Shown here: positions 1 through 63,266 of the stretch, piece after piece
Numbering within the stretch: the stretch's first letter is position 1
How the letters are laid out: each line of letters opens with the position of its first letter
From: an uncultured Aureispira sp.
GTDB lineage: Bacteria > Bacteroidota > Bacteroidia > Chitinophagales > Saprospiraceae
Reading direction: 5' to 3'
Length of the DNA stretch: 64,000 bases
Assembly (NCBI GenBank): GCA_905480075.1
Contig: CAJQOX010000069.1
Span: forward strand, 1 to 64,000
Position numbers and translations under genes: made by a program
Notes under the pieces: generated by a model
Database searches by the model: none
What the model saw: only the letters and a program-made list of their open reading frames with translations
What the model was told of the DNA's origin: nothing

Positions 1-696
1 GGGCTGTTGGAATACAGTACAGACGGCACGAACTGGCAGGACGGCAACCTGTTTACCGGACTGACTGCGGGCATCTACGATTTGATTGTTAGGGATGAAA
101 ACGGCTGTGTCGATAGCACGCAGGTAGTAGTAGAAGATGCCAATCCCTTCTTCATTACTACAATAACAGAAAACACGACCATAGAATACCTCGACAGTAT
201 GACCGTAGAAGCAATGGTCAACGACACGACAAATGTACTCTACAGCTGGACACAACTGGAAGGCACCACTATAGGACTTATAACCGACAGCAGTTACAGC
301 TTCGGTATTGCACCGGAAGAGAAAGTCAGCTACCTCTTCTCAGCCGTCAACGAATTCGGTTGCCGAGTAGACAGTATCGTCATCATCGATGTTACAAAAC
401 CAAGACGTGCCAATGCCCCGACCGCCTTTACCCCTAACGGAGACGGCGTCAATGACAACTTCTTTATACAGGGAGGCGAGAAGGTCGAGGAAGTGGTTAT
501 TTTCAGAATCTATGACCGCTGGGGCGAGTTGATGTTTGAAGGAAGGAACCTGGAGATTAACAACCCTGTACAGGGCTGGAACGGTAATTTCAGAGGCAAG
601 CCCTGTTCTTCGGGCACCTATACCTGGTATGCTGATATTCTTTTTAAAGATGACGAAACCACTCAGATTAAAGGCGATGTTATTTTGTTGAGGTAA
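1..696 (+). CDS. SprB-repeat adhesin, 3' end, with gliding-associated C-terminal domain
   Basis: The reading frame is open at the window edge, so only the last ~231 residues are visible. The first part (GLTAGIYDLIVRDENGC) matches the SprB-repeat style found in giant gliding adhesins. The last ~90 residues, starting at PTAFTPNGDGVND and including YDRWGELMF, GWNG and SGTYTWYADI, match the CHU_C / gliding motility-associated C-terminal domain (T9SS type B sorting signal). The protein is therefore probably exported by the T9SS and displayed on, or released from, the cell surface. Base composition is visibly richer in G+C than the neighbours (34 of the first 60 bases by my count), with many C-ending codons. 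A hairpin terminator follows. What is seen is the C-terminus; that it belongs to a very large adhesin is inference. Confidence 0.88.
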   Translation, partial: GLLEYSTDGTNWQDGNLFTGLTAGIYDLIVRDENGCVDSTQVVVEDANPFFITTITENTTIEYLDSMTVEAMVNDTTNVLYSWTQLEGTTIGLITDSSYSFGIAPEEKVSYLFSAVNEFGCRVDSIVIIDVTKPRRANAPTAFTPNGDGVNDNFFIQGGEKVEEVVIFRIYDRWGELMFEGRNLEINNPVQGWNGNFRGKPCSSGTYTWYADILFKDDETTQIKGDVILLR

Positions 697-1484: not shown

Positions 1485-1880
1485 TTATTTCAAAATAACA
1501 AGCTTTTGAAATTCACTGCTTTGTTTTGTATTGCTGTTGTTGCCTTCTGCCCTGACAAAGATTTTATAGATATACACCCCTTTTCCGATTCTGTCTCCAT
1601 AATCGTCAAGACCATCCCAGTTAATATTACTTACCCGGTATCCTGTGTTCACTTCTTTGTATACCTCATGTTCGAGGGTTTTTATTAACCTGCCCGAAAC
1701 CGTGTAAATCTGAATCTGAACTTCAAGTCCCTGATTAGGTAAATTGTGTTCAAACTGAAAATTGGTGTTTGTTGTAAAGGGGGTGGGGTAATTCAATACA
1801 TGCCTGAGGGCCATATTAGCATCATTTGCGACAATAAATTCTGTAGTACCTTCTCCGGGATTGTTATAAGTATCCCAGGC
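1485..1880 (-). pseudogene. porU: C-terminal remainder of PorU downstream of an in-frame TAA
   Basis: This stretch is in the same frame as the porU gene above it (5363 minus 1814 is divisible by 3) and reads on directly after the TAA at 1881-1883 as AWDTYNNPGEGTTEF, then NMALRHVLNYPTPFTTNTN. It ends in the FlgD-like/T9SS type A style tail (YTVSGRLIKTL, NWDGLDDYGDRIGKGVYIYK, QKLVILK). Such tails end full-length PorU-like proteins in this phylum, so this is the true end of the gene cut off by one stop codon. An internal ATG at 1814 would allow a separate 109-residue product, but it has no signal peptide. Confidence 0.82.
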
Positions 1881-4800
1881 TTATATATCTACATTATAAA
1901 GCCCCTGAGGTAGATTTTTTAGTTGATATATTGCTGTACCCTTTGTGAAGTCATCGATGGCCGATTCATAAAAGTTATTTAAAATATATTCATTTTCAGA
2001 AAGACCTTCGGTCAGTTTTGCTGTTAAATCATGTCCAATACCGTTCCCAACAGTATTTATTCCGTTTTCATCATACAGCTTAATCAATAATTTGGGATTG
2101 TTGTCAGTAATTCCACCTTCTGCAAATTCTTCATTATTCATATAAACCATTACTTCCGGGCCTGTATTATCCATTGATGCATTAGCAAATGTACCACCAA
2201 CAACCAATCCATTATAATAACCTGTAGCATCCTTGTCAATACCATTCTCTGCGTAGCATGTGATTTTTCCGAAACCCAATGTATAATTTATATCCCTTGG
2301 GACAACAAAGGAGATTGTAAACTTTCCATTACTTACGGTAGCCTTGCCTTTGAAAATAATTTTTTTGCGGATAAAAAAGTCATCCTTATAACTATCATCA
2401 TCATTGCCCAATGTGTAAATTTTATCTTTCTTATCAAAAACAGTTATATATAAAGTACCGTTAAACCCATTTACAATACTATTAGTATTATCAGTAATAT
2501 CTCCTGAAACAGTCACAAATTGTAAAGCACTTATAGTGTCTTGCCCTGTAACGGTATTTCCGTTAATCTGATTGATTCTCACTTTATATTTTGGGTAAGC
2601 CAAAGTCATTGTAGGGTCACCCAGCAGAGTATATTTTCTAAAATTAGCAGATAAAGGATTGCCGACGGTATTTTTTGTGTTTTGCATAACCTCTCCGATA
2701 GTCGATCTGAGTCCATTTGCTTTCCTGTCAAAAATCACTTCAAAAGTTTTTTTAACCAAATCTTCGTTTTGGTTTGCCATAACAACCCTGACAGTAGTAA
2801 AAAGAGCAATTGCTCCCCCACCGGGGTTGAGGAGTAGTAATTCAGCAGCAGACACTATATCAGGATTGTCGTGCGGGCCAAAAGTACAGGTAGCAGTTAT
2901 AAAAAGTGGCAATTTATTTTTATTGGATAAAGACTTAATATCATTGCTTGTGAAAATTTGTTCCTGAGTCCATCCGTTATCACTTCCATGTCCCAGGTAA
3001 TTGACAATAAAACTACCTTTGCCCAAAACATCCAAGAGGGCATTTTTTGCTTCAGGATAACGATTGCCACCTGAAGTACTTTCTTGTTTGAAGGCATCGA
3101 TGTAAATTTTATCAATATTATAAAGACTGTCTTCTTGTTCTGTAATAACAGAAACTTTTTCAGAACCATTAAAGTAAGAGTTGCCATCGCTGTCATCAGC
3201 AACAAAGCATATTCTGTTTTTCCAATCCTTCATAAAGGCAGGGGCACTTTCATAAGCAATTATTTTATCAACAAATATTTTTGCTTCAGAAAGGTTAGAA
3301 GCAGGAAGCCTTCCTACTGCGATATCCAAAGCACTGAAACTTGAAAATGATTCGGTTGTATCCAATAATGCAAAGTAGTCATCAGAAGTATAAGTTGTGA
3401 TGGGGTTCATAGACTCCCTTGTTTCATAAACAGGGATTAAATTTGGATTATTCTCAGTTGTCCTGCCATAGCCCAGTGATTTGTAATCAAAGGTTCCAAT
3501 CCCAAACAGCAACAAGTGAGTAAATTTATTTGTAGGGGTTTCCCGTTCATAAAGCATTCTGCAATAATCTCTGATAGCTGTAACATCAGATTTTCCTGAA
3601 GAGAATTCATTAAATATATCCTGTACGTCTATAACATCTACAGTCATGTTGCTGAAGGTGCGTCTATGCGCAGCCAAACGGTCAGCCTCATCCTTAAGGG
3701 ATGAATGGCAAATAAAAACCGCATCAGGAGGGCTGGTGATTCCATGCAAATTCTGATTTCTTACAGAACCCACTGCAACAGGTGTATAGAATTGATTATT
3801 ATCGAAGGCAACAAATTCACGTAAAACGGAAGCCTCAGCACCAAAGGAAACCGTCCCTGATCCTGTAGCAACAATTTCGATGTTATCGGGGTATGTCACA
3901 TCCCAAATGCTTACATTATTAGCATTTGAAAGTTGATAGTTAGCTGTTGTCTGACCAACCGACCTGCTATCTCTGAAAGGAAGTTGACCAAAGCTGAAAT
4001 TCAATTGACAACGCACCTGTACCGAGAGGTAATTCATCCACATATCAGCAGTTGAACTGCTATGGTTTAAAGTTATCTGTGCATTAATATTCTGACCAGA
4101 CAAAATAGTTGAGTTGCAGGGGAAGGTCAATTTTTTTGCATAGGCTGTATGAATTGAAATAGATGTTGTAGCAGTGTTAACTGTACTGATAGCACTATTG
4201 TTGAGAATCAGGTCAGCAGAACCCGTAGTCATTACCCTTACGGCAAGGTCAGATAAAACAATAACCGGTTCGTTTTCAATTCTATTATAAAAATGAAAGT
4301 TAAAAGTTCTTGTTCTGTGTTGTTGAAACAAGAACGATTCGCCGTACCATTCCCTGCCTGAAGGGGGAAGCGCAAATTCTTTTTCCATCAGATTAAATTC
4401 ATCTTTTTCGTGATGTGCCAAAGCGTCATAGCTTGTAGTAGAATAATTTGCAGGGGATGCTGAGGCACGTCCTGTTATACGTTTGCCATTGCTGTTAGCT
4501 ATTTTAATAAAATAGTAACTGTTATCTGTATAGGGATTAGAAGAGTGATTGAATTTTCCACAGCTTGCAAAATTGTTGAAATTCCAGGTTTTGGTACCCA
4601 CGCCATAAAATAGTATATAGTCACTTTGACCGAAACTGCCATCGGATTCGCCTTCTACAAAAATGGCATTTTCCGTCAAATCATCGACGCCTGTAACAGC
4701 CATAGATTCTCTGAGGGCATTGCCACCATTTCCAAGTACCTGTATGTTGCGGGGGTCAATATTATCAACATCAACTCCCAGGGTTTTCAGGAAGTTATAA

Positions 4801-5363
4801 TCCATCTTAAAAATGCCGGTATTAGGAATTGATATTTTATAAATATAACCATCAGATAATTTTGAGGATGTTGTATAGTTTCTTGATGTGCCCGATGTAT
4901 AAGGCGAAGGTTTTGGAGTTTGCGAAACCTGTAGTTCTGCACTTATTAACTTCTCATAAACACCTGTAGTCTGATTTTTTCGTATAGGAACAAAATATAC
5001 TATTCCTACTGGTTCACGACGTTCAAAAGTTACTCCGGTTTTTATATCTATATCTTCAATCCCGGAAAGATCAATTTCTGAATTATTTGTAATAGCAGTG
5101 TATTGTGTGTTTACCAGCCTTGCGCTGATATCTGAATAAGAGTTTAATTTAATTTTAGCAGACCAAATTGGTGTTTGAGGATTTATACCATTATACGAGG
5201 CATCATGGAAATACAAATAGTGAAGTATGTGGTCTTCTGTTATTTTATATTTACGCGCTTGTTCCTCCCAGTTGATGTTAATTTTTTGTGTATTAGTTTG
5301 TGCATAAATGAATGAGGAAGCAAGGAAAGGAATTAATATAGAAAAAAGGATAAAACGTATCAT
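1881..5363 (-). CDS. porU: T9SS sortase PorU (gingipain-like C25 peptidase), prematurely ended
   Basis: PorU is the outer-membrane cysteine protease/transpeptidase that cleaves the C-terminal sorting domain from T9SS cargo and attaches A-LPS or another anchor. The visible product is 1160 residues with signal peptide 1-21 (ending IYAQ), a long beta-rich N-terminal region, and a C25 peptidase domain at roughly residues 540-910. The probable catalytic His is H792 (NYLGHGSDNGW) and the catalytic Cys is C826 (ITATCTFGPHDNP). The frame ends at TAA 1881-1883 in the middle of a beta domain (QGLYNVDI) and continues for 131 more codons after the stop, so the intact gene would span 1485-5363 (1292 residues). 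The next genes are a porP-like gene and gldJ; porU and gldJ are also neighbours in Flavobacterium johnsoniae. A sequencing error cannot be excluded. Confidence 0.88.
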   Translation of the reverse strand: MIRFILFSILIPFLASSFIYAQTNTQKININWEEQARKYKITEDHILHYLYFHDASYNGINPQTPIWSAKIKLNSYSDISARLVNTQYTAITNNSEIDLSGIEDIDIKTGVTFERREPVGIVYFVPIRKNQTTGVYEKLISAELQVSQTPKPSPYTSGTSRNYTTSSKLSDGYIYKISIPNTGIFKMDYNFLKTLGVDVDNIDPRNIQVLGNGGNALRESMAVTGVDDLTENAIFVEGESDGSFGQSDYILFYGVGTKTWNFNNFASCGKFNHSSNPYTDNSYYFIKIANSNGKRITGRASASPANYSTTSYDALAHHEKDEFNLMEKEFALPPSGREWYGESFLFQQHRTRTFNFHFYNRIENEPVIVLSDLAVRVMTTGSADLILNNSAISTVNTATTSISIHTAYAKKLTFPCNSTILSGQNINAQITLNHSSSTADMWMNYLSVQVRCQLNFSFGQLPFRDSRSVGQTTANYQLSNANNVSIWDVTYPDNIEIVATGSGTVSFGAEASVLREFVAFDNNQFYTPVAVGSVRNQNLHGITSPPDAVFICHSSLKDEADRLAAHRRTFSNMTVDVIDVQDIFNEFSSGKSDVTAIRDYCRMLYERETPTNKFTHLLLFGIGTFDYKSLGYGRTTENNPNLIPVYETRESMNPITTYTSDDYFALLDTTESFSSFSALDIAVGRLPASNLSEAKIFVDKIIAYESAPAFMKDWKNRICFVADDSDGNSYFNGSEKVSVITEQEDSLYNIDKIYIDAFKQESTSGGNRYPEAKNALLDVLGKGSFIVNYLGHGSDNGWTQEQIFTSNDIKSLSNKNKLPLFITATCTFGPHDNPDIVSAAELLLLNPGGGAIALFTTVRVVMANQNEDLVKKTFEVIFDRKANGLRSTIGEVMQNTKNTVGNPLSANFRKYTLLGDPTMTLAYPKYKVRINQINGNTVTGQDTISALQFVTVSGDITDNTNSIVNGFNGTLYITVFDKKDKIYTLGNDDDSYKDDFFIRKKIIFKGKATVSNGKFTISFVVPRDINYTLGFGKITCYAENGIDKDATGYYNGLVVGGTFANASMDNTGPEVMVYMNNEEFAEGGITDNNPKLLIKLYDENGINTVGNGIGHDLTAKLTEGLSENEYILNNFYESAIDDFTKGTAIYQLKNLPQGLYNVDI

Positions 5364-7195: not shown

Positions 7196-8716
7196 ATGAA
7201 GAAATTATTTTTAATTGGACTGCTTGGTGTTCTACTGATGTCGTCTTGTAACAAGAACAATGAAAAAATGGGCGGACGGTCAGAAACTACCGGCTGGGCC
7301 TATAACAGTCAGGAATGGGGAGGTTTTGAAAAACCGATGGAGTATCAGGGACAAGCCACAGGTCCGAACCTTGCCTTTATTGAAGGAGGAACCTTTAATA
7401 TGGGACAAACGGAGGAAGATGTCATGAAAGATTATCGTGGAATCCCCCGTCGTGTAACTGTTTCTTCATTTTATATTGATGAAACTGAAGTGTCAAACCT
7501 CGATTATCTTGAATTTTTATACTGGCTTCAGCGTGTACATTCAGCTATGCCACAATTGCACAGAAAAGCACTTCCGGATACCTTGGTCTGGTACGAAGAA
7601 CTTTCTTATAACGAGCCTTATGTAGAAACTTATTTCAGACACCCTGCATATATGGATTATCCTTTGGTTGGGATTTCCTGGATTCAATGTCAGGAGTATT
7701 GCAAATGGAGAACGGACCGTGTTAATGAAATGATTCTGATTGAATCCGGTAAAATTACGGCAGATCATGAAGGACAACAAGGAGAAAATAACTTTGTAAC
7801 GGAATCTTATCTCGCAGGTATCTATGAAGCAGATCCGGGTGAAAAGCCAATGGTTAGCTATAGTACAGGGGAAGAAAGGAAAGTTAGATTTGAGGATGGT
7901 ATTGTACTTCCTGATTATCGTTTGCCTTCTGAAGCAGAATGGGAATATGCTGCGCTTGCTTTGATAGGAAATCAATCCTATTCCAGAGACGAACGTATCT
8001 CAGACCGTAGAATTTATCCTTGGAATGGTACTACAGTCCGTTACCCTCAGCATGGCCCTTATCAGGGAAATATAGTTGCAAACTTTAAACGTGGCCGTGG
8101 TGATTATATGGGTATGGCGGGTGCATTGAATGATAATGCTTCTATTACGGCACCGGTACGTTCTTATATTCAAAACGATTATGGTCTCTTTAATATGGCC
8201 GGAAATGTAAATGAATGGGTTCAGGATGTTTATCGTCCTTTAACAAGCACAACGCTCAGAGATGTGGAAACTCAGGATTTAAATCCTTTCCGTGGTAATA
8301 CTTTTACTGAAATCGAATTGGATGCTGACGGTAAGCCGCAGTTAGATAATGACTCTGTTAATCCTGGTCGTTTGAAATACAAAGCCCTGGATGCTGATGA
8401 GATTGCTTCAAGAAGAAACTTTCAGTTTTCGAATGTAATCAATCATATGGATGGTGATAAACAATCTGAATCTGAATATGAGTATGGAATACATTCTTTG
8501 ATTTCTGACAAAACCCGTGTTTACAAAGGGGGCGCATGGAATGACAGAGCTTATTGGTTGTCTCCTGGTGCACGTCGTTTTCTTGAAGAAGAAAAAGCTA
8601 CTGCTTATCTTGGGTTTCGCTGTGCTATGACAAGAACAGGTTCACCTAAAGGAAATATCGCTCCTGGTGGAAATCAAATCAGAACTTCCAACAGAGGATC
8701 GAGCAGAAGATATTAA
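7196..8716 (+). CDS. gldJ: Gliding motility/T9SS lipoprotein GldJ
   Basis: The product is a 506-residue lipoprotein with a lipobox ending in C18 (LLMSSC). The mature protein has the formylglycine-generating-enzyme (FGE/sulfatase-modifying) fold typical of GldJ and GldK: FIEGGTFNMGQ, FYIDETEVSNLDYLEFL, DYRLPSEAEWEYAA, GLFNMAGNVNEWVQDVY, YKGGAWNDRAYWLSPG and YLGFRCAM. GldJ is needed for gliding and stabilises GldK in Flavobacterium. It is called GldJ rather than GldK/PorK because of the neighbouring porU and because no gldL follows. The C-terminus carries a Gly/Asn/Arg-rich tail. Transcription probably stops at the strong hairpin just downstream. Confidence 0.85.
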   Translation: MKKLFLIGLLGVLLMSSCNKNNEKMGGRSETTGWAYNSQEWGGFEKPMEYQGQATGPNLAFIEGGTFNMGQTEEDVMKDYRGIPRRVTVSSFYIDETEVSNLDYLEFLYWLQRVHSAMPQLHRKALPDTLVWYEELSYNEPYVETYFRHPAYMDYPLVGISWIQCQEYCKWRTDRVNEMILIESGKITADHEGQQGENNFVTESYLAGIYEADPGEKPMVSYSTGEERKVRFEDGIVLPDYRLPSEAEWEYAALALIGNQSYSRDERISDRRIYPWNGTTVRYPQHGPYQGNIVANFKRGRGDYMGMAGALNDNASITAPVRSYIQNDYGLFNMAGNVNEWVQDVYRPLTSTTLRDVETQDLNPFRGNTFTEIELDADGKPQLDNDSVNPGRLKYKALDADEIASRRNFQFSNVINHMDGDKQSESEYEYGIHSLISDKTRVYKGGAWNDRAYWLSPGARRFLEEEKATAYLGFRCAMTRTGSPKGNIAPGGNQIRTSNRGSSRRY

Positions 8717-60992: not shown

Positions 60993-63266
60993 ATGATTTT
61001 TTTCAGATACTCACTCTTTTTGGTTTTGTTTTTAGTTAGTGCTTGTACTGATTCGAAAGATGATTCGACAATGCCGCTTATTAATGAGAATTATGCCTTG
61101 ATTCCTCAGCCTCAGTATTGTGATAAAAAAACAGACCTTTTTGTAATTAATAAAGATACCCGTTTCCTTTTCTCCGGCAAACTGGCAAAAGAAGCTGCTT
61201 ATTTCTTGAAACTGATTCACCTTAGCTCTGATTTTCAACTGATCACTGTTAACGAATTGCCTGAGAAACCGGAGAATATTATTATTCTGGAACTGGAACA
61301 ATCTGACAAGAATGATAAATCGGAACAATACCAACTTAGTGTTGATTCTGAACAGATTCGTATTAAATCTTCTTCTTCTACCGGGATATTCAGAGGCATT
61401 CAAACACTGCGTCAAATGTTGCCTCCTGAGTTTCATGCCAAAGGAAAAAGAAAGTCATGGGGCGTCAGAGGAGTGCTAATAAAGGATTTTCCTGCTTTTA
61501 AATGGCGTGGCTTGTTGTTCGATTGCTGCAGACATTTCTTCAGCAAAAAAGTTGTATTGAAATATATCGACCTGCTCGCCTTTTATAAAATGAATACCCT
61601 GCATTGGCACCTTACTGAAGATCAGGGGTGGAGGATCGCTATCGATAAATATCCCGAACTTACCCGAACCGGTGCCTGGAGAAAAGATAAGGAGAATTCA
61701 AAATACGGGGGCTATTACTCTAAAAAGGATATAAAGGAAATTATTGCATATGCTGCCGAAAGACATATCAATGTGGTCCCCGAAATAGAATTGCCGGGAC
61801 ACTCTCAGGCTGCTATTGCAGCGTATCCTCACCTTTCATGTACCGGACGTCAACTTGAAGTGGGAAATAAATGGGGGGTATTTAAAGATGTTTATTGTGC
61901 TGGAAATGACAGTACTTTTGTTTTTCTCGAAGATGTACTCAATGAAGTTATTGAACTTTTTCCTTCTCAATATATTCATATTGGTGGCGATGAATGTCCG
62001 AAATACAGATGGGAACATTGTAATAAATGCCAAAACAGGATTAAATCTGAAAATTTAAAGGATGAACATGAACTACAAAGCTATTTTATTAAAAGAATTG
62101 CCAGGTTCCTTGAGTCCAGAAATAAAACCCTCATCGGTTGGGATGAAATACTCGAAGGTGGCCTGGCCGAAAATGCTGTAGTTCAGTCATGGAGAGGTAT
62201 GAATGGCGCCCTTGAAGCTGCTGATAACAGTCAGTTTGCTATTGCTTCTCCTACCTCTCACGCTTATTTTGATTACAACCTGCAGGCTATTGATTTAGCC
62301 AAGGTATATCAGTTCAATCCCATACCCTCAGGACTCGATCCTGCTAAACACCGGTTTATACTCGGTGGTGAATGTAATATGTGGACAGAACATGTTCCTG
62401 ATGAAGACGGGTTGGATAACAAGGTCTTTCCTCGTCTACTTGCTATGTCTGAAGTGCTTTGGTCTGATTCTGTTAAAAGAAACTATGAGGATTTTTATCA
62501 AAGGGTACAAATGCATTACCCGATACTTGACTTTATGAATGTAAAGTATGGCGCTGAAACAGTGCCCGTCAGACTTTCTGCTTTCACAAGCACAAAAAGT
62601 ATTAATATTAAATTGTTGAAAGGTGCGGAGAATCTTGACCTCTATTATACCCTCAATGATAGCTTGCCATCTCCTTCTTCTTCACTGTATGAAGGTGCTA
62701 TACCTTTAAAAAAGTCCGCAACTCTTAAGGTCCTTGCCTTTAAAAATAATAAAAAATACGGAAGCCTTTTTGAAAGGAAATTCAGCAAACATCTTGCTAA
62801 TGGCCTGCAACCCGAATTAAGTTATTCTTATAGTCAGAATTATACCGGTGGGGGTGATCTTGCTGTGACAAACGGTGCAAGGGGAAGTCTCAATTTCAGG
62901 GACGGCAACTGGCAGGCTGTGCAGAAAGTGCCTATGCAGATTACTATTGATTTGAAAAGCAATAAGACAATTTCCAAATTGTCTGCTGCGTTCTACCAAA
63001 AACAGGATTCCTGGATCTTTCTGCCGCCCAAAGTGGACTTCTATTATTCTGTGGATGGCAAAAAATATACGCTTATTAATTCTGTAGTTAATACTATTTC
63101 CCCTGAGAAAGGGGGCGAGTTTATTAAGGAATTTAGTACAAATAGTAATATTGTTGAAGCTGAATTTGTAAGAATAATAGCACATAATATAACTTATTGC
63201 CCTAACTGGCACCCTGCTGCAGGATCGGAGGCATGGTTGTTTATTGATGAATTTGTTGTTGAATAA
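60993..63266 (+). CDS. GH20 beta-N-acetylhexosaminidase lipoprotein
   Basis: The product is 757 residues with lipobox ending in C18 (LFLVSAC). The N-terminal GH20b domain (YALIPQPQYC ... GIFRGIQTLRQMLP) is followed by the GH20 barrel: RGLLFDCCRHFF, NTLHWHLTEDQGWRI, VVPEIELPGHSQAAIAAYP, the catalytic pair in HIGGDECPKYRW, and WDEILEGGL with VQSWRG. A chitobiase-type linker (DLYYTLNDSLPSPSS) and an F5/8-type discoidin C-terminal domain follow. It removes terminal GlcNAc/GalNAc from chitin oligomers or glycans at the cell surface. The next gene starts 13 bp away, so co-transcription with cutC is likely. Confidence 0.93.
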   Translation: MIFFRYSLFLVLFLVSACTDSKDDSTMPLINENYALIPQPQYCDKKTDLFVINKDTRFLFSGKLAKEAAYFLKLIHLSSDFQLITVNELPEKPENIIILELEQSDKNDKSEQYQLSVDSEQIRIKSSSSTGIFRGIQTLRQMLPPEFHAKGKRKSWGVRGVLIKDFPAFKWRGLLFDCCRHFFSKKVVLKYIDLLAFYKMNTLHWHLTEDQGWRIAIDKYPELTRTGAWRKDKENSKYGGYYSKKDIKEIIAYAAERHINVVPEIELPGHSQAAIAAYPHLSCTGRQLEVGNKWGVFKDVYCAGNDSTFVFLEDVLNEVIELFPSQYIHIGGDECPKYRWEHCNKCQNRIKSENLKDEHELQSYFIKRIARFLESRNKTLIGWDEILEGGLAENAVVQSWRGMNGALEAADNSQFAIASPTSHAYFDYNLQAIDLAKVYQFNPIPSGLDPAKHRFILGGECNMWTEHVPDEDGLDNKVFPRLLAMSEVLWSDSVKRNYEDFYQRVQMHYPILDFMNVKYGAETVPVRLSAFTSTKSINIKLLKGAENLDLYYTLNDSLPSPSSSLYEGAIPLKKSATLKVLAFKNNKKYGSLFERKFSKHLANGLQPELSYSYSQNYTGGGDLAVTNGARGSLNFRDGNWQAVQKVPMQITIDLKSNKTISKLSAAFYQKQDSWIFLPPKVDFYYSVDGKKYTLINSVVNTISPEKGGEFIKEFSTNSNIVEAEFVRIIAHNITYCPNWHPAAGSEAWLFIDEFVVE

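Follow-up and report, generated by a model that had tools for sequence, protein, structure and literature searches.

The closest described counterpart of the gene considered here is PorU, the sortase of the T9SS. The C-terminal domain (CTD) of P. gingivalis PorU spans A1054-Q1158 and a variant with the last six residues replaced is reported to stay in the periplasm and to mimic deletion (PMC11285876). According to a review, the uncleaved CTD of PorU stays bound to PorV (PMC10202324). As for pairs of porU genes in Aureispira, no description was found in searches of an openly licensed library, including passages of PMC11285876, PMC5562754 and PMC10202324.

A porU gene with an in-frame stop codon

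The window, that is, the whole stretch of DNA analysed, comprises 64,000 nucleotides of a contig from an uncultured Aureispira sp.; the source genome is a 5.08-Mb draft in 408 contigs, 92.41% complete and 0.93% contaminated. The features at the porU end of the window are as follows.

1..696, plus strand: terminal part of a secreted protein bearing a T9SS type B sorting domain (TIGR04131, 54.6 bits, cut-off 35), cut by the contig start
916..1407, plus strand: unrelated ORF with no NCBIfam match, in the place held by the second porU or porV in relatives
1485..1814, minus strand: internal ORF of 109 aa from the ATG at 1814, with no signal peptide (by inspection)
1485..1880, minus strand: post-stop porU tail, 131 codons plus the natural TAA, encoding the last strand(s) of an Ig-like domain and a type A CTD with the end KLVILK
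1881..1883, minus strand: in-frame TAA within porU, based on the sequence and a 22-row alignment of other PorU
1881..5363, minus strand: porU 'u' copy (beside porP), open for 1160 aa and encoding a signal peptide, a C25 peptidase domain, H792 and C826
6131..7135, plus strand: porP/sprF-family gene, a divergent neighbour kept in relatives (TIGR03519, 212.6 bits, cut-off 90.55)
7196..8716, plus strand: gldJ, kept in relatives (GldJ_short TIGR03530, 388.3 bits, cut-off 382.9); against TIGR03524 it scores 427.9 bits, below the cut-off of 458.2

An earlier note on this sequence had reported that a TAA at 1881-1883 cuts porU 131 codons before its natural end, and this proved correct. The gene opens with the ATG at 5363 and runs for 1160 codons to the C-terminal LYNVDI, followed by the TAA, past which the porU frame resumes with AWDTYNNPGEG and stays open for 131 codons up to the TAA at 1485. 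The 1160-aa part matches positions 2-969 of the NCBIfam PorU model NF033707 (1065.6 bits) and the 131-aa tail matches positions 972-1095; read through the stop, the gene scores 1217.6 bits, and both scores exceed the curated cut-off of 420 bits. In the PorU search of the whole genome, the gene is a single match with '1 TAA' inside. Given that the model covers both pieces in order and that the search returns one match, the two pieces on either side of the TAA are one porU gene. The complete type A C-terminus ending at 1485 that the note described is indeed encoded there, as the tail passes the type A sorting-domain model TIGR04183 (29.3 bits, cut-off 23), solely past the stop and hence outside the translated product. 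The catalytic residues, too, are upstream of the stop and kept, as had been claimed: H792 lies in YLGHG (from 789) and C826 in TATC (from 823). No further stop interrupts the 1160 codons, which encode a C25 peptidase domain (PF01364, 344.5 bits) and a Sec signal peptide, the latter judged by inspection of residues 1-30.

A hexamer coding score trained on the long genes of the window classes both sides of the stop as coding, with 0.576 and 0.487, the mean over the 100-codon pieces of those genes being 0.499. Ranked among the candidate in-frame stops of the window, 37 in all, the porU TAA comes first, and the two that follow, at 63264 and 14362, are ends of ordinary same-frame neighbouring genes. 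The coding score on both sides and the top rank argue that the stop does not lie within porU by chance. When PorU sequences of relatives were aligned at 1881-1883, the codon was found to be sense in all 22 other rows (K in 18, R in two, T in one and N in one).

A frame open on both sides of the TAA, with a conserved tail, could also mean that the stop is read through, or that the tail is made separately from the ATG at 1814, giving a full or a two-piece PorU; we regard this as highly improbable. The ORF from 1814 exists, as the note had pointed out, but its 109-aa product has no signal peptide and is not expected to be exported, which makes a separately made tail unlikely. The RNA after the stop folds no better than shuffled sequences (z 0.49; an equal or better fold in 140 of 200 shuffles), this folding comparison revealed no recoding signals downstream of the stop, and a stop at that position is absent from the 22 other rows. 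UAA is the tightest bacterial stop, which also counts against readthrough.

Expected product of the truncated gene

The stop aligns to chain residue 1030 of the P. gingivalis PorU structure 6ZA2, which we counted as UniProt residue 1032 via the loop motif I1090-V1098 given in PMC11285876, and this alignment places it about 22 residues ahead of the CTD. An intact C-terminal region from locus L060 (360 aa) was also modelled; with a mean pLDDT of 54.4, the model serves as a rough strand map only. In it, the stop position falls inside strand 222-231, and one further strand, 237-246, precedes the CTD. As written, the gene would thus yield a 1160-aa protein with the signal peptide and the peptidase domain, but without the CTD and also without the last strand(s) of the domain preceding it. 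Such a protein would reach the periplasm by Sec, would neither cross the outer membrane nor be held by PorV, and would not serve as a surface sortase. That the 1160-residue product should be kept from the cell surface follows from the phenotype of the C-terminal replacement in P. gingivalis and from the binding of the CTD to PorV, that is, from evidence in another species. The product is presumably both periplasmic and inactive.

A second porU in the same genome

The loss of the CTD, which the earlier note had considered striking, is far less so in a genome that has a second, CTD-bearing porU beside porV. This second ('d') copy is 69-74% identical to the window copy and is split between two contigs, with codons 1-944 on C273 and everything from about codon 955 onward on C174; the ends of these contigs show no overlap, about nine codons being in the gap. 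Its pieces contain no internal stops, keep the CTD and are followed by porV. The window copy retains the porP-gldJ side and the second copy the porV side. Large repetitive surface genes located between the two copies may be where the assembly broke, leaving the pair on separate contigs. By inspection, a secreted-type protein end is located at the contig end beside the other porU copy (L002 3450-3637).

Tetranucleotide profiles tie C273 and C174 to the genome of the window rather than to the other Aureispira loci tested. The match to the window is 0.855 for C273, versus 0.819-0.920 for 3.6-kb window pieces, and 0.921 for C174, versus 0.934-0.963 for 10.7-kb window pieces; seven loci of other Aureispira genomes give 0.469-0.748. 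Contamination as the origin of the second porU is not favoured by this match in composition, by the 0.93% contamination of the bin or by the uniqueness of porV: the only strong PorV matches in the genome are the porV after the second porU and the PorV beside a PorU2 gene on contig C399, a third match, on C404, being weak (E 4.1e-4). The second copy, with its CTD, would presumably carry out the surface sortase work, and we infer that it is functional.

Several further loci were noted in the course of these searches. On C399, a putative PorU2 sortase of 1534 aa (NF052324; L052 5992-12108) is directly followed by a PorV-family gene, and the two form a putative second sortase/shuttle pair in the same genome. 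The notion that this second PorV is decayed was dropped, as the reported '2 TAA' is the natural end read past and the gene is intact. Contigs C98, C15 and C272 of G000 carry additional C25-like genes that match the PorU model in part, with scores under its cut-off. Gene conversion between the two porU copies of this genome was likewise rejected: nucleotide identity along the gene is 58-79%, with no exact match of at least 25 bases.

Unequal porU pairs in Aureispira

Aureispira is a gliding, prey-catching genus. Tandem porU pairs lie between porP and porV in three of eight other genomes of the genus that were compared (G003, G004 and G006; loci L037, L038 and L039), a single porU is found in four (G001, G002, G005 and G007), and the porU of G008 is cut by a contig end. 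The window gene would be the u member, beside porP, of a pair of this recurring kind. The porP-side (u) copy evolves faster than the porV-side (d) copy in each of these three tandem pairs, and the same holds for this genome. The unique changes, porP-side versus porV-side, number 21 versus 3 in G003 (outgroup G004d), 71 versus 10 in G004 (outgroup G006d) and 144 versus 70 in G006 (outgroup G003d). For the window copy versus its sister, the counts are 149 versus 95 with G003d as the outgroup (p 0.00055), 158 versus 88 with G004d and 138 versus 96 with G002, and the window copy is also the faster one with G106d; the difference is not significant with G106u (86 versus 79, p 0.59) or L013 (83 versus 66, p 0.16). 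Long branches are also seen for G002 and G007 on a fixed tree. A rule that the porP-side copy is always faster could not be extended beyond the genus: G106 agrees at p < 0.05 with four of six outgroups, and G134 shows the opposite.

Sites shared u with u and d with d outnumber crossed ones between G000 and G006 (22 versus 8, p 0.016) and between G004 and G006 (22 versus 1), with no clear excess between G000 and G106 (15 versus 8, p 0.21). Such an excess fits an old u/d split common to the species, but parallel changes in the fast copies could give the same pattern. In the G004 pair (L038 7095-15484), identity between the copies reaches 100% in some stretches of 60 codons and is 66-74% elsewhere, and the two tails encode the same protein sequence, a pattern that looks like gene conversion. 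In a further reading, which we consider very unlikely, the two PorU sortases of Aureispira would form a long-standing tandem pair that gene conversion has kept alike in part, with the porP-side copy diverging toward a separate role; in this species, that copy would have dropped its export domain and would work, if at all, as a periplasmic variant of PorU. The recurring unequal pairs are the more interesting part of these data than the truncation, as they form a natural experiment on two questions, whether the cargo is shared out between two PorU copies and whether PorU is able to work when its CTD is missing.

Constraint on the gene and the age of the stop

The tail was under purifying selection until recently. 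Between the window copy and its sister, differences at codon positions 1, 2 and 3 are 0.168, 0.099 and 0.519 in the tail (pN/pS 0.19) and 0.235, 0.147 and 0.541 in the body (pN/pS 0.24), and the window branch on the fixed tree measures 0.259 for the tail and 0.281 for the body. A tail long free of selection would have changed faster, so the stop arose late or is absent from the living genome. With its 1160 codons open and its catalytic pair retained, the window gene was probably functional until very recently. At the same time, the whole gene appears mildly relaxed. In a count from which the near-identical G003u row had been left out beforehand, the window copy breaks 41 of 498 pre-stop columns that show no variation among the other ten rows. 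No other row breaks as many, the next highest being G002 (37 of 494), with 19 of 476 for the sister copy. Past the stop, it breaks seven of 81 such columns, the other rows breaking zero to three, and the N of NYPNPF in the tail, present in all 22 other rows, is T in the window copy.

The absence of any sign of long neutral drift in the tail is what would be expected if the TAA were a consensus error or a minor-strain allele, the gene of the population being intact and encoding a normal PorU of 1292 residues, a reading that we regard as the less likely but serious rival. In the family, 195 of 199 genomes match PorU at E 1e-60 or better, and among the 150 matches listed, three have lone in-frame stops, namely, the window gene and those of G136 and G210. 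The latter two genomes have one porU match each at this threshold, and the frame is open before and after the stop; in them, a genuine stop should come at a cost, which indicates that consensus errors or minor-strain alleles of such kind do occur, and the draft genome considered here is in 408 contigs. However, no further stop that is internal, in frame and flanked by coding sequence was seen in the window, and in the same genome a stop occurs in none of 32 ABC-ATPase matches and in one of 49 HATPase matches, that one being weak (E 1.8e-5). Furthermore, the stop sits in the very copy that was already evolving fast and losing invariant residues. In G136 (L089), the stop is a TAA shortly past the catalytic Cys, and in G210 (L090), a TAG in the N-terminal third; by inspection, porV-like sequence follows in both.

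The truncated protein could also be a working product, a periplasmic PorU-like peptidase or decoy that took on a new role while the other copy sorts the cargo. The intact signal peptide and catalytic residues are compatible with such a role, as is the unequal divergence of the copies in this genome and in all three tandem-pair genomes of the genus. Nevertheless, we find it very unlikely, as the cut also takes the end of the preceding domain, so that the fold would be damaged, the CTD is present in every other aligned Aureispira copy, and the tail was selected until recently. In addition, around the active site, the window copy differs from the majority at G794, S827 and G840.

Overall, the window gene is probably a redundant, relaxed u paralogue of porU newly truncated by a nonsense mutation; its product would be periplasmic, and the porV-linked copy would serve the secretion system. 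Under this scenario, the u copy would have come under relaxed constraint relative to its sister, and a recent nonsense mutation would have followed. The premature stop, at a position that is sense in 22 of 22 other rows, and the relaxed constraint are what a decaying duplicate displays, and most likely this is nothing more unusual than the onset of decay in a duplicated gene, with a stop that we infer to be real in the living population, the truncation turning on one base in a draft consensus. The earlier note had offered a truncated sortase, a separately made tail, readthrough and a sequencing error as explanations; that list was fair, and recent truncation emerges as the best supported, with readthrough finding no support. 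Beyond annotation, a truncated spare copy matters little: the genome should not be recorded as lacking PorU.

Comparison with known sortases

The window gene resembles the T9SS sortase PorU (NF033707, PF01364, 6ZA2) in its domain order, catalytic His and Cys and long N-terminal form, and, as in PorU, a type A CTD is encoded, although here past the stop. Unlike in PorU, the frame closes about 22 residues short of the CTD, and the gene is one of two copies, the faster-evolving one, and does not lie beside porV. The P. gingivalis PorU mutant 1152sHis, as reported in PMC11285876, is similar in that the C-terminal signal is spoiled, the mutant protein being periplasmic and deletion-like; it differs in that only six residues are replaced there, whereas the window gene loses its CTD entirely and has a sister copy in the genome. 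Another counterpart is the PorU2/PorV pair of the same genome (NF052324, contig C399), with a C25-family putative sortase beside a PorV-family gene. Unlike the window PorU, however, this PorU2 is intact and belongs to a distinct family, scoring 665.6 bits against NF052324 and 133.5 bits against NF033707, below the cut-off of 420.
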